From assembly GCA_023144005.1 (NCBI GenBank), contig JAGLGN010000025.1, positions 1-48,944 on the forward strand: a DNA stretch of 48,944 nucleotides, read 5' to 3'. Of the stretch, positions 40,213 to 44,780 are shown one piece after another; positions within the stretch are counted from its first letter, which is position 1; each line of letters starts with the position of its first letter. The notes under the pieces are model-generated. The model made no database searches. It had not been told where the DNA came from and saw only the letters and a list, made by a program, of their open reading frames with translations. Position numbers and translations under genes: made by a program. Origin of the DNA: a bacterium. GTDB lineage: Bacteria > AUK180.

Positions 40213-40227
40213 CAATTCGGAGGTATG

Positions 40228-40668
40228 ATGAAAACAGCGATCATGATTTTCTTATTGACATTTCTTTCTGTCGCCCCGTTAAGCGACAGTGTCATTTCTC
40301 CCGAAGATGGAGCTAATCCCCTCTTTCTTTCAGAATATGATGCAACCGTATATGCGAACAGAACGCTCTGGTTTTCAGCGGGAGTTCTCTTTAATATCTT
40401 TGCTGTTGGAATATCTTATCTCTTTGTGCCTGTACCATCCCCGGAATCCCTTGTGGGGAGAAGTGAGGACTTCGTTGGTATTTACACTGAAAATTATCGG
40501 AAAATCCTGCAATCCATCAATACGAAATGGGCAATTTTCGGCTGTGTCGGAAATACCGCCGTCCTGTCTACTATCTTCTTGGTCTATGCGATAAGAGACG
40601 GATGCCAGGAGGCCTGCTCAAATGTTATCGGGGCAATTTTCGAGCAAGGATGCTCCACAGGATCATAA
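40228..40668 (+). CDS. Small secreted or membrane protein, paralogue of the protein at 34749
   Basis: 146 residues. N-terminal signal (MKTAIMIFLLTFLSVAPLSD), a span near 50-70 (LWFSAGVLFNIFAVGISYLF), the PVPSPESLVGRSEDFVGIYT block, and a final hydrophobic part (WAIFGCVGNTAVLSTIFLVY) with a Cys-rich tail. The similarity to the 34749 product covers most of the chain. ATG 40228 is preferred over 40225 by its spacing from GGAGG. The histidine kinase starts 3 nt after it, so the two probably work together, for example as an accessory sensor. Confidence 0.7.
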   Translation: MKTAIMIFLLTFLSVAPLSDSVISPEDGANPLFLSEYDATVYANRTLWFSAGVLFNIFAVGISYLFVPVPSPESLVGRSEDFVGIYTENYRKILQSINTKWAIFGCVGNTAVLSTIFLVYAIRDGCQEACSNVIGAIFEQGCSTGS

Positions 40669-42090: not shown

Positions 42091-42173
42091 AGCAAAATCA
42101 AAACTATATCATTCTTTCATTATCTTCATATTCCTTCGCGATTTTCTTACTTTTCTCAATGTGATATATTAAT

Positions 42174-42216
42174 TTTCTTAATATTTTTTGACTTTTTCCT
42201 TGACTTTCTTAATATT
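42174..42216. promoter_or_regulatory. Pair of TTTCTTAATATT direct repeats
   Basis: Identical 12-mers at 42174-42185 and 42205-42216, 31 bp apart (three helical turns). The second overlaps the spacer of the DUF2089 promoter. Possible binding sites for a dimeric regulator. Confidence 0.45.
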
Positions 42217-42228
42217 ATACCTTACAAT
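42200..42228 (+). promoter_or_regulatory. Promoter of the DUF2089 cluster
   Basis: TTGACT (42200-42205), 17 nt, TACAAT (42223-42228). Confidence 0.65.
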
Positions 42229-42249
42229 ATGACACAAGAGGAGTTAACA

Positions 42250-42621
42250 ATGAAGATAATCAGAAACTGCCCGGCCTGCTCCGCGGCAACAAAAGTGTCC
42301 GAATTGACCTGTACAGGCTGCGGCTTAACGATGCAGGGGAATTTTGATACCGATCCGTTTCTTCATCTTTCTGGTGAAGAAGTGGACTTTGCGCTGGTCT
42401 TTATAAAGAACAGAGGGAATATCAAGGAAGTAGAAAGAGAATTGAATATCTCCTACCCGACTGTAAGGGCCAGATTGAATACCTTGATCGCTGCTTTGGG
42501 ATTTTCTTCCGAAGAAAGCGAAGAGGACACCGGGACAAATCCCCGGATGGAGATCATTTCGAGAATGGAAAGAGAAGAGATCTCTCCCTCAGAGGCAGCT
42601 AAATTGCTGAAGAATCTATAA
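42250..42621 (+). CDS. DUF2089 family zinc-ribbon/HTH protein
   Basis: 123 residues from ATG 42250, preceded by AAGAGGAG at 6 nt; the earlier ATG at 42229 has no ribosome site. Zinc ribbon CPACSAATKV...CTGCG at the N-terminus, then an HTH (GNIKEVERELNISYPTVRAR), and a C-terminal SHOCT-like helical motif (MEIISRMEREEISPSEAAKL). Probably a DNA-binding regulator. Similar proteins often precede beta-solenoid LiaX/YvlB-like genes. A 25-codon frame (42621-42698) overlaps its stop and the next start and could couple translation. Confidence 0.85.
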   Translation: MKIIRNCPACSAATKVSELTCTGCGLTMQGNFDTDPFLHLSGEEVDFALVFIKNRGNIKEVERELNISYPTVRARLNTLIAALGFSSEESEEDTGTNPRMEIISRMEREEISPSEAAKLLKNL

Positions 42622-42690
42622 TGAACGGTTTAATGAACTTGAACAATTCTTTGAAGAAAGCAAAATCCAGAATTAATAAGGAGGAACATC

Positions 42691-42834
42691 ATGAGTGAAG
42701 AGTTAGGAAAAGTATTGGGAATGTATCGTAAAGGCAAATTGTCAGATGAAGAATTCGATCTTCTTGTGGAAATAATCACATCTGACATCATTAATGACAG
42801 CTTGGAAAATAATAAGGAGGAAAATCATGGATAG
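42691..42834 (+). CDS. 47-residue SHOCT-like protein
   Basis: A short gene preceded by AAGGAGGA at 4-5 nt. The product is a two-helix motif (GKVLGMYRKGKLSDEEFDLL) that matches the pattern LxxxxxGKISxxEFxxLV seen in both neighbours. Its stop overlaps the start of the next gene by 8 nt. Such SHOCT-like modules usually mediate oligomerisation. It stands alone here, perhaps as a regulator of its neighbours' assembly. Confidence 0.7.
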   Translation: MSEELGKVLGMYRKGKLSDEEFDLLVEIITSDIINDSLENNKEENHG

Positions 42835-43597
42835 CGAACTCAATAGAATTATTGATCTATTTGAAGAAGGGAAGATCTCAAAGAAGGAATTTCTCGAATT
42901 GGTAAATGCCTTGAAGGAAGGAGATGTTCGGACACATCGGAGGAACTTCGACAGAAAAGCAGAGAAATCCTTCGGCAAAGCAATGACGAATATGAAGGAT
43001 ACTTTCAAGGATGCCTTTGGAAAAATGGAGATCTTCATGGGTGAAAAAACCAAAGATCTCGAGGATTCGACCGTTGAGATCGAGGCAGATTCGATCAAGA
43101 ATGTAGTAGCCTTTGTTACCGGCGGCGACCTCAATGTCACACAAGGTGATAAGAAGGATATCTCTTTCTTCAAATCTTCATTTGGCGGTAAAGCTGATGT
43201 TGACGGGGATACTCTCCGGATCAAAGTATTTGCCGGCACCGGAGATCTAACATTGCCAAGCACGATCGCCGGACTGAAGGTAAACCTCACCGGAGGAAGC
43301 ATGAAATTGGACGGTGCCCTGGAGGAATTTGAACTTGATGTAAAGGGTGGCTCTGCCTTCTTGACACTCAATGATTTTCAGAAGATAGAAGTCCGCTGCA
43401 TGGGTGGGGATATTGAACTTAAATTACCCAAAGTAAAGGATGCGACTATTGCGGTGAAGGCAACGGCAGGTGATTTTTCCTGCCAGCTTCCCAATGACTG
43501 TGAAGAAAAGGATGGCCTTTACTCAGGAATTCTGGGCAAAGGCGGTGACCGTACTATCAACGGATCCATATTCGGCGGAAATATCTCGATAAGCTGA
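42827..43597 (+). CDS. SHOCT-like plus beta-solenoid (DUF4097/LiaX-like) protein
   Basis: 256 residues from ATG 42827 with AAGGAGGA just upstream; a longer frame to 42794 lacks a ribosome site. The N-terminal 30 residues are the helical motif NRIIDLFEEGKISKKEFLEL. A charged linker follows, and from about residue 90 a repeating beta pattern (VVAFVTGGDLNVTQGDKKDI, LKVNLTGGSMKLDGALEEFE, IEVRCMGGDIELKLPKVKDA) as in DUF4097 proteins that respond to envelope stress. There is no signal peptide, so it is likely cytoplasmic or membrane-peripheral. Confidence 0.8.
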   Translation: MDSELNRIIDLFEEGKISKKEFLELVNALKEGDVRTHRRNFDRKAEKSFGKAMTNMKDTFKDAFGKMEIFMGEKTKDLEDSTVEIEADSIKNVVAFVTGGDLNVTQGDKKDISFFKSSFGGKADVDGDTLRIKVFAGTGDLTLPSTIAGLKVNLTGGSMKLDGALEEFELDVKGGSAFLTLNDFQKIEVRCMGGDIELKLPKVKDATIAVKATAGDFSCQLPNDCEEKDGLYSGILGKGGDRTINGSIFGGNISIS

Positions 43598-43635
43598 TGA
43601 GGTAATTGTAAAATAATATCCTCACTCTCTCGGAA

Positions 43636-43725
43636 GGGCACGGCATGCCGTGCCCCTACGGGTTATTCTCCATTCTTCCTTCCTTAACCAACCTCTAACC
43701 TCCAGCCTCAAACCTCTATTTTCCT
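43636..43725. repeat. Intergenic palindrome and dispersed repeat
   Basis: 43636-43655 is the perfect 20-bp palindrome GGGCACGGCATGCCGTGCCC followed by CTACGGG, a REP-like unit. 43686-43725 is the 40-nt repeat shared with 24821-24860 and partly with 3011-3034. Confidence 0.85.
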
Positions 43726-43739
43726 CCCCATCTATAATG

Positions 43740-43768
43740 TTGACAATTCTGCGCTATTGCAGTATAAT
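43740..43768 (+). promoter_or_regulatory. Fully consensus promoter
   Basis: TTGACA (43740-43745), 17 nt, TATAAT (43763-43768). The predicted start near 43775 leaves about 10 nt, just enough for GGGAGGA, before ATG 43785. Confidence 0.85.
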
Positions 43769-43784
43769 TTTACGGGAGGAATTC

Positions 43785-44162
43785 ATGGCAAGTAAGCGAA
43801 ATATCCTAAGGAAATTATCGAGAAACAAGATCTCTGTATCTGATGCTCAAACTGCCTTGAGCTCATGTGACGGAAAGCGCGCTTATTATGTGCTGAAAAC
43901 GAATTTTCTCCGTGTTAAGATCAAAACCGATTCAGGACCGAAAAATGTTCGACTTAACTTCTTGATACCCTTGGGACTAGTAAGGCTTGCACTGCCGCTT
44001 ATCAATAAGAAATTATTGAAGAAGGCAAAGATACCCAACTTAGGCATTTCGGTTTCTGATCTTCATATTTCTTCTCTTCTTGATGATCTCAGGCATTTCG
44101 GACGATTCTCGCTTGTGGAAGTCCACGACGAAAATACACATGTTAATATCAGTTTTAAATAA
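43785..44162 (+). CDS. LiaX/YvlB-like small protein with SHOCT-like N-terminus
   Basis: 125 residues. The first 25 residues (SKRNILRKLSRNKISVSDAQ) repeat the helical motif of the preceding three genes. The rest has VRLNFLIPLGLVRLALPLIN, LGISVSDLHISSLLDDLRHF and LVEVHDENTHVNISF, the pattern of the small cytoplasmic domain that accompanies LiaX/YvlB-like proteins. The start is fixed by GGGAGGA and the promoter. It has its own promoter, although it belongs to the same functional cluster. Confidence 0.75.
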   Translation: MASKRNILRKLSRNKISVSDAQTALSSCDGKRAYYVLKTNFLRVKIKTDSGPKNVRLNFLIPLGLVRLALPLINKKLLKKAKIPNLGISVSDLHISSLLDDLRHFGRFSLVEVHDENTHVNISFK

Positions 44163-44174
44163 TGGAGAGTGATT

Positions 44175-44780
44175 ATGAAAATTAAGATGTTCCTCTTTGA
44201 CTTCGGCGGCGTGATATCCCCCGAGGGTTTTCAGATCGGCCTGCTTAAGATCGCCCAGGAAATTGGCAGGGACTTTGAAGTGGTAAGAGAAATAGCGGTA
44301 AATAAAGCCGGATTGGCGACGGGATATTTTGCTGGCAAAGCAGCGGAAAATGATTTCTGGGACGCGCTGTCTGAAGGGCTGGGGCTGGATTATTCATTAA
44401 AACCGTTAAGGTATCATTTCATTGATAATTTCATAACAAGGAGCCAGGTCACTCGGCTTATAAAAGGGCTTTCGCATTTCTATACCGTCGCATTATTCTC
44501 TGATCAGACCAATTGGATCTATGAGGTTGACACTGTTTATCCATTCCTTCATATTTTTGATCATAAATTTATATCCTGCAATAGCGGCTATACAAAATTG
44601 GATGATAAATTCTATCGTTTACCGGAGGAAAAAACAGGCATACCGCCCAAGGAAACCATGTTGATCGATGATAAGGACTCTGTTCTGGCAAAAGCCGACA
44701 AATTGGGATTCAATACACATAAGTTTACTTCAGTAGCGGACTTCAAGGAATTTATTGTAAAAGAGAGATTGCTTCCCTAA
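44175..44780 (+). CDS. HAD superfamily hydrolase
   Basis: 201 residues from ATG 44175 (GGAG upstream; GTG 44169 less likely). Motif I MFLFDFGGVISPEGF (the Asp that forms the phospho-enzyme, in the DFGGV form of the YihX-like subgroup), motif II VALFSDQTNW, motif III region near YRLPEEKTG, and motif IV MLIDDKDSVLAKA. Likely a small phosphatase acting on a sugar phosphate or nucleotide. The substrate is unknown. Confidence 0.88.
   Translation: MKIKMFLFDFGGVISPEGFQIGLLKIAQEIGRDFEVVREIAVNKAGLATGYFAGKAAENDFWDALSEGLGLDYSLKPLRYHFIDNFITRSQVTRLIKGLSHFYTVALFSDQTNWIYEVDTVYPFLHIFDHKFISCNSGYTKLDDKFYRLPEEKTGIPPKETMLIDDKDSVLAKADKLGFNTHKFTSVADFKEFIVKERLLP

Follow-up and report, generated by a model that had tools for sequence, protein, structure and literature searches.

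The closest described relatives of the locus studied here belong to a four-gene Toastrack context with DUF2089, a protein with a zinc ribbon, an HTH and a SHOCT-like part, in which SHOCT-like hairpins also stand at the Toastrack N-termini (PMC11237479; mSystems 2024). A role in membrane stress has been predicted for this context, the hairpin has been predicted to act as a membrane anchor, and LiaI/LiaF-TM, PspC and B-box membrane partners are found as variants of it (PMC11237479). In LiaX, a relative of the Toastrack proteins, the N-terminal helical part senses antimicrobials and the C-terminal part inhibits LiaFS; a canonical SHOCT domain showed no self-oligomerisation in a published test. 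SHOCT-like hairpins occur widely. Adaptor and anchor models of their action can be distinguished in a compact natural setting, the DUF2089 operons, where the hairpin recurs in two to four separate proteins and sometimes stands alone. Coming from a small and largely uncharacterised phylum, the locus described here is a divergent example with one unusual extra, a very short gene that seems to be copied from part of its neighbour and whose module has been lost in the nearest relative. As the DUF2089-Toastrack context with its SHOCT-like domains is already known (PMC11237479), the modest interest of the locus lies in its mini-SHOCT ORF, the likes of which occur elsewhere, and in a conserved promoter element.

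What do the genes of this locus have in common? In the window, by which we mean the whole stretch of 48,944 nucleotides from an uncultured bacterium that was analysed, four adjoining genes, coding for DUF2089, a 47-aa ORF, a Toastrack protein and a further protein, P0007, carry one small two-helix module. A preliminary description had proposed the pattern LxxxxxxKISxxEAxxLL for all four; the module indeed lies where it was placed in each product, but the literal pattern matches none of them (0/4). A relaxed form, [ILMV]x6[KE][ILV][ST]xx[ED][AFG]xx[ALVI][LVI], is present in 4 of the 275 six-frame ORFs of at least 40 aa in the window, exactly these four genes, and in 5 of 1091 control genes from DUF2089 loci, a comparison that is partly circular and descriptive because the motif was drawn up after the four had been seen. 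Less circular is a test with two HMMs, one built from DUF2089 tails alone and the other from neighbours in other genomes. P0007 scores 11.3-11.9 bits on both, which is reached by 0 of 2000 shuffles, and the Toastrack N-terminus 6.4 and 9.3 bits on the DUF2089-tail and neighbour HMM, respectively (4 and 1 of 2000 shuffles); the DUF2089 tail in turn obtains 12.3 bits with the profile built from other genomes' neighbours. The general profile thus supports the motif in P0007 and Toastrack, and leaves it unsupported in the 47-aa ORF, which scores weakly (-2.3 and 2.4 bits, at best 74 of 2000 shuffles).

The copies also fall under the thresholds of the established domain families: the DUF2089 C-terminus is recognised by the SHOCT-like PF22746 with 15 bits and the 47-aa ORF by the SHOCT family PF09851 with 12.4 bits, each short of the required 27, and a PF22746 search lists neither the 47-aa ORF nor Toastrack nor P0007. 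In the source genome (G000), this cut-off is passed only by the partner in a second DUF2089 operon, at C35. The copies do agree with the broad definition of a SHOCT-like module, a pair of short helices linked through a G/E/N-[KE]-[IL]-S turn, with modelled helices at residues 2-12/18-28 in P0007 and 2-13/19-31 in Toastrack; the 47-aa ORF counts as SHOCT-like in this broad sense only through its similarity to the Toastrack N-terminus. The replacement of A by F at the second helix is rare, being found in 5 of 192 scored neighbours, including the Toastracks of the window and of another genus in the same family (G002). While the low Pfam scores of all four copies and the weak score of the 47-aa ORF would suit a mere chance resemblance of common amphipathic helices, we regard this as extremely improbable in the face of the shuffle tests, a profile-profile match of the P0007 family and a strong positional enrichment across 158 loci, with an equal frequency in control genes having been looked for and found absent (7/1091). 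The shared bi-helical SHOCT-like module at the locus is thereby confirmed.

The enrichment emerges from a survey of 158 DUF2089 loci (80 named loci, 60 further genome stretches and relatives), which are not phylogenetically independent and whose genes were called by a simple ORF picker rather than a trained gene finder. With a hairpin called at 8 bits or more on the HMM built from DUF2089 C-termini alone, 87 of 134 first (65%) and 51 of 87 second (59%) genes downstream of DUF2089 carry it, compared with 0.6% of the controls. The seven high-scoring controls share the strand of DUF2089 and are apparently operon partners that the 250-nt rule failed to catch, so that the contrast, for which they were kept as controls, is if anything understated. 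Counting DUF2089, SHOCT-bearing genes stand singly in 56 loci, in consecutive runs of two in 66, of three in 31 and of four in 5, giving two to four such genes in 102 of 158 loci. Sharing of the hairpin is therefore a general property of DUF2089 operons, and the suggested link to envelope stress gains support, as the module so common in these operons is tied in the literature to PSP/Lia-like systems. LiaF-TM proteins in DUF2089 operons bear the hairpin as well (L014, L046, L072), which places the module at the membrane. However, hairpins are no more similar within operons than between them (0.648 vs 0.651) and thus give no sign of matched pairs; a partial Mantel correlation, considered as a sign of pairwise docking, is weak (r 0.16) and was set aside, the test being anti-conservative. 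In three loci (L176, L180, L185), LiaF-TM-like segments are fused with a SHOCT-short protein in a single chain, which suggests that the separate LiaF-TM and SHOCT-short proteins found elsewhere act together at the membrane.

All genes of the window locus lie on the forward strand. The DUF2089 regulator (42250..42621) comprises a zinc ribbon, an HTH and a C-terminal SHOCT-like hairpin (residues 99-123, about 42544-42618); it matches PF09862 with 79 bits and PF22747 with 33.8 bits, both above cut-off, and its tail aligns with other DUF2089 tails. A consensus scan places a sigma70-like promoter, TTGACT-17-TACAAT, at 42200..42228, with the same hexamers in the sole congener (G001). The direct repeats noted earlier over this promoter do exist: two 17-bp copies 31 bp apart (42169-42185 and 42200-42216) are 15/17 identical, and 6 of 500 dinucleotide shuffles are as good; the congener also has 15/17 (3 of 300 shuffles). 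The proximal copy makes up the promoter's -35 hexamer and spacer. Its distal counterpart is conserved both in the congener and in G002, at an equal distance from the -35, and the element with this copy agrees at 25 of 31 positions between the window and G002, matched by 0 of 2000 mononucleotide shuffles. Since the distal copy is kept across genera, sequence conservation makes a regulatory element upstream of the DUF2089 promoter likely. Alternatively, its place upstream of the -35 would suit an AT-rich UP element for RNA polymerase; that DUF2089 binds the repeats is conjecture. Elsewhere in the genome, the 17-bp repeat has two further near matches, neither of them in front of genes of the DUF2089-locus kind. 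Behind the DUF2089 gene and ahead of the 47-aa ORF, at 42623-42676, another frame reads ERFNELEQFFEESKIQN (ERFNELEQFSEEGKY in the congener), which resembles the first helix of a SHOCT hairpin and is possibly a relic of one more hairpin copy, or chance. In the second DUF2089 operon of the source genome (L040:3007-3773, G000 C35), a SHOCT-short gene follows directly with a 4-nt overlap, and a histidine kinase is convergent.

The Toastrack protein (DUF4097, LiaG/LiaX-like; 42827..43597) scores 30.2 bits on PF13349 against a cut-off of 22.9 and is modelled (pLDDT 77) with the SHOCT-like hairpin at residues 2-31, a long helix at 43-73 and a beta-solenoid at 81-255; the model matches the fold of PDB entry 4qrk with E 3e-9. 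It reaches 25.7 bits on NCBIfam LiaG (cut-off 285) and 13.1 bits on LiaX (NF038025, cut-off 350), and has no liaFSR neighbours. PDB sequence searches with the DUF2089, P0007-family and Toastrack alignments returned nothing convincing. The labels beta-solenoid and LiaX/YvlB-like, earlier given to two different proteins, thus both belong to this one Toastrack, and P0007 comes from another family.

Between DUF2089 and Toastrack lies the 47-aa ORF (42691..42834), which has a strong Shine-Dalgarno sequence (SD), an EF-type SHOCT-like segment and an 8-nt overlap with the Toastrack start. Its product resembles two Toastrack N-termini, that of the window (SW 56) and that of G002 (SW 62), each reached by 0 of 2000 shuffles, and has no significant similarity to the DUF2089 tail or P0007 in shuffle tests. 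A block spanning Shine-Dalgarno and start is repeated at 42671-42693 and 42807-42829, with 21/23 identities over 23 nt at an offset of 136, and the coding parts of the two genes also align best at this offset (34/84), the next offsets being barely lower (33/84). The repeated block and the protein similarity fit an old tandem duplication, and the ORF, as judged from its sequence, probably arose when the start of the Toastrack gene was partly duplicated in tandem. In the congener, 87 nt of it are absent in frame and the hairpin is gone; MSDIINDSLENNKEENHG remains, and the start, the SD and the Toastrack overlap are retained. In G002, DUF2089 and Toastrack are 13 nt apart with nothing between. 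The module in the ORF is therefore dispensable on an evolutionary scale; with two genomes to compare, the persistence of SD and tail in the congener makes a loss there the simpler reading. This speaks against the ORF being needed as the free adaptor that had been proposed. We find it rather probable that it is no working adaptor and is either decaying as a partial duplicate or serves as a leader frame coupling translation to the Toastrack gene: the 136-nt tandem offset, the in-frame gap in the congener, the absence from G002 and the weak score on the general SHOCT profile all point this way. However, the key motif positions are intact in the ORF, the difference in the congener keeps the frame, and free mini-SHOCT genes exist independently, two of them in a genome of the same class (G006) and one at L098. 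This explanation concerns the 47-aa ORF alone and is compatible with a sub-membrane assembly of the other products.

The two G006 proteins, at L017:6841-7023 (60 aa) and L227:1943-2122 (59 aa), are related to each other, share a tail ALY...E...F.E/K and lie one within a DUF2089 operon and one elsewhere; they are a real stand-alone mini-SHOCT family. At L098:5376-5537, a 53-aa ORF between DUF2089 and Toastrack joins a hairpin directly to a strand-like end like that of the SHOCT-short proteins, as if the middle were deleted. A weak match of the 47-aa ORF at C13 of the source genome was rejected, as it overlies two large unrelated called ORFs.

P0007 (43785..44162), a SHOCT-short partner, consists of the hairpin (residues 2-28) and a predicted ββααββ domain. 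Its subfamily matches the SHOCT-short family in hhalign over 118 columns spanning hairpin and C-terminal domain (prob 98.7, E 1.7e-16), and P0007 scores 83 bits on the SHOCT-short family model, whose rows include P0007 itself. Its structural model has a pLDDT of 82-94 in the hairpin and 44-70 in the remainder (mean 67); a fold search with it gave no match at E <= 0.001, and the viral contigs searched with P0007 held no relative. It is preceded by a perfect sigma70-like promoter, TTGACA-17-TATAAT (43740..43768, 12/12), identical in the congener, and followed after 12 nt by a HAD-like hydrolase lacking the SHOCT-like motif (44175..44780; TIGR02247 42.5 bits, under its cut-off), an order kept in the congener (L012). 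Hydrolase and P0007 are probably co-transcribed, and with its own promoter and the hydrolase behind it, P0007 probably forms a separate unit, so that a single unit of all four genes is not supported. Between Toastrack and P0007, about 110 nt (43601-43710) are absent in the congener and contain an almost perfect palindrome (cggaagggcacggcatgccgtgcccctacg) that may be a small dispersed repeat.

Control downstream of an orphan kinase had also been suggested for the four products. The kinase gene ends 160 nt before DUF2089 on the same strand, the order is alike in the congener, and LiaX-type Toastracks do work with a kinase, LiaS, all of which would accommodate a control of the module through phosphorylation. 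However, among the 158 loci a kinase lies directly before DUF2089 only in the genus of the window (the window and L012/L063) and, with a different kinase, in L214; a promoter separates kinase and DUF2089, DUF2089 has no receiver domain, and the G002 gene pair does without a kinase. Kinases are abundant in all seven genomes of the phylum, with an orthologue of this one (95% identity) only in the congener. The adjacency is thus nearly genus-limited, and kinase control, which we consider very unlikely, is not supported. The kinase may have an input partner in a 147-aa protein (40225-40668) that is encoded 3 nt ahead of the kinase gene and lies upstream in the congener too; this protein has hydrophobic stretches and matches no Pfam family.

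What can be proposed about the function of the shared hairpin? The architecture, conservation and positional linkage can be read from the sequences: a regulator, a Toastrack and a third protein all carry it. Our best reading, offered tentatively and with less than even confidence, is a hairpin-tethered, stress-responsive DUF2089-Toastrack assembly beneath the membrane in which DUF2089 regulates its own expression. The hairpins would gather DUF2089, Toastrack and P0007 at the inner membrane face, either by docking onto one another or by docking on a single common site, the Toastrack solenoid serving as platform. Envelope stress may alter the assembly, freeing or reshaping DUF2089, which would then act on its own promoter via the TTAAYTTTNTTAATATT element; the 47-aa product, if translated, could compete for the docking site. 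The hairpin enrichment downstream of DUF2089, the runs of SHOCT-bearing genes, the hairpins of LiaF-TM proteins, the Toastrack fold, the cross-genus promoter element, the published membrane-stress prediction (PMC11237479) and the sensing and inhibiting parts of LiaX all argue for this reading. Against it stand the probable promoter of P0007's own, the lack of self-oligomerisation in canonical SHOCT, the lack of a pairing signal in the hairpins and the lack of a transmembrane partner gene beside the locus, where none of the seven genes at 40225-44780 matches LiaF-TM or PspC. A membrane partner is not obligatory, though, as the published context has variants and, at 36 of the surveyed loci, nothing but a SHOCT-bearing long gene lies downstream.

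Alternatively, the hairpin may be a lipid anchor and no protein adaptor, each product tethering independently to the inner leaflet and the genes sharing the hairpin only because all products work there. This is the published prediction (PMC11237479), and the failed oligomerisation test and the missing signal of cognate pairing agree with it. However, the membrane-spanning LiaF-TM proteins carry the hairpin too, where an anchor is redundant; the window hairpin's hydrophobic moment does not exceed that of shuffles (233/1000), and the helix following it is only mildly amphipathic (65/1000). On balance we consider independent anchoring rather unlikely, and retain the docked assembly as our provisional choice. 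Extending the latter, the hairpin could be a common docking tag of DUF2089 systems. Free mini-SHOCT proteins, of 47 aa in this locus, 59-60 aa in G006 and 53 aa at L098, would then arise time and again from partners that are partly duplicated or internally deleted, and would compete in soluble form and so fix the level at which the stress response sets in; we regard this proposal as a whole as improbable at present.

How, then, does the locus relate to the known systems? Like the published context (PMC11237479), it has a DUF2089 with zinc ribbon, HTH and SHOCT-like tail and an adjoining Toastrack whose N-terminal SHOCT-like hairpin is backed by profile score (9.3 bits, 1/2000 shuffles) and model; unlike it, it lacks a LiaI/LiaF-TM or PspC partner gene, contains the inserted 47-aa ORF, the upstream kinase and a P0007 behind its own promoter, and has hairpins that are all divergent. 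With LiaX, LiaG and YvlB, the Toastracks of the Lia response, the window protein shares an N-terminal helical part and a C-terminal DUF4097 beta-solenoid, but it stays under the LiaG and LiaX cut-offs and has no LiaFSR genes beside it. The hairpins are short bi-helical end modules with a turn G/E-x-[IL]-[ST]-x-x-E/D-[AF], as in SHOCT (PF09851) and SHOCT-like_DUF2089-C (PF22746), yet all remain under the gathering cut-offs, and the Toastrack and 47-aa copies have EF in place of EA at the second helix. P0007 resembles the SHOCT-short family (L040:3390-3773, L014:9903-10307) in its hairpin and a domain ending LVEV...D..V.I.LE, but belongs to a divergent subfamily with L042, L096, L123 and L139 and stands outside the DUF2089 transcription unit. 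Judged by these comparisons, the locus is a divergent member of the known DUF2089-Toastrack gene set with its predicted role in membrane stress, and is not unique in its motif.
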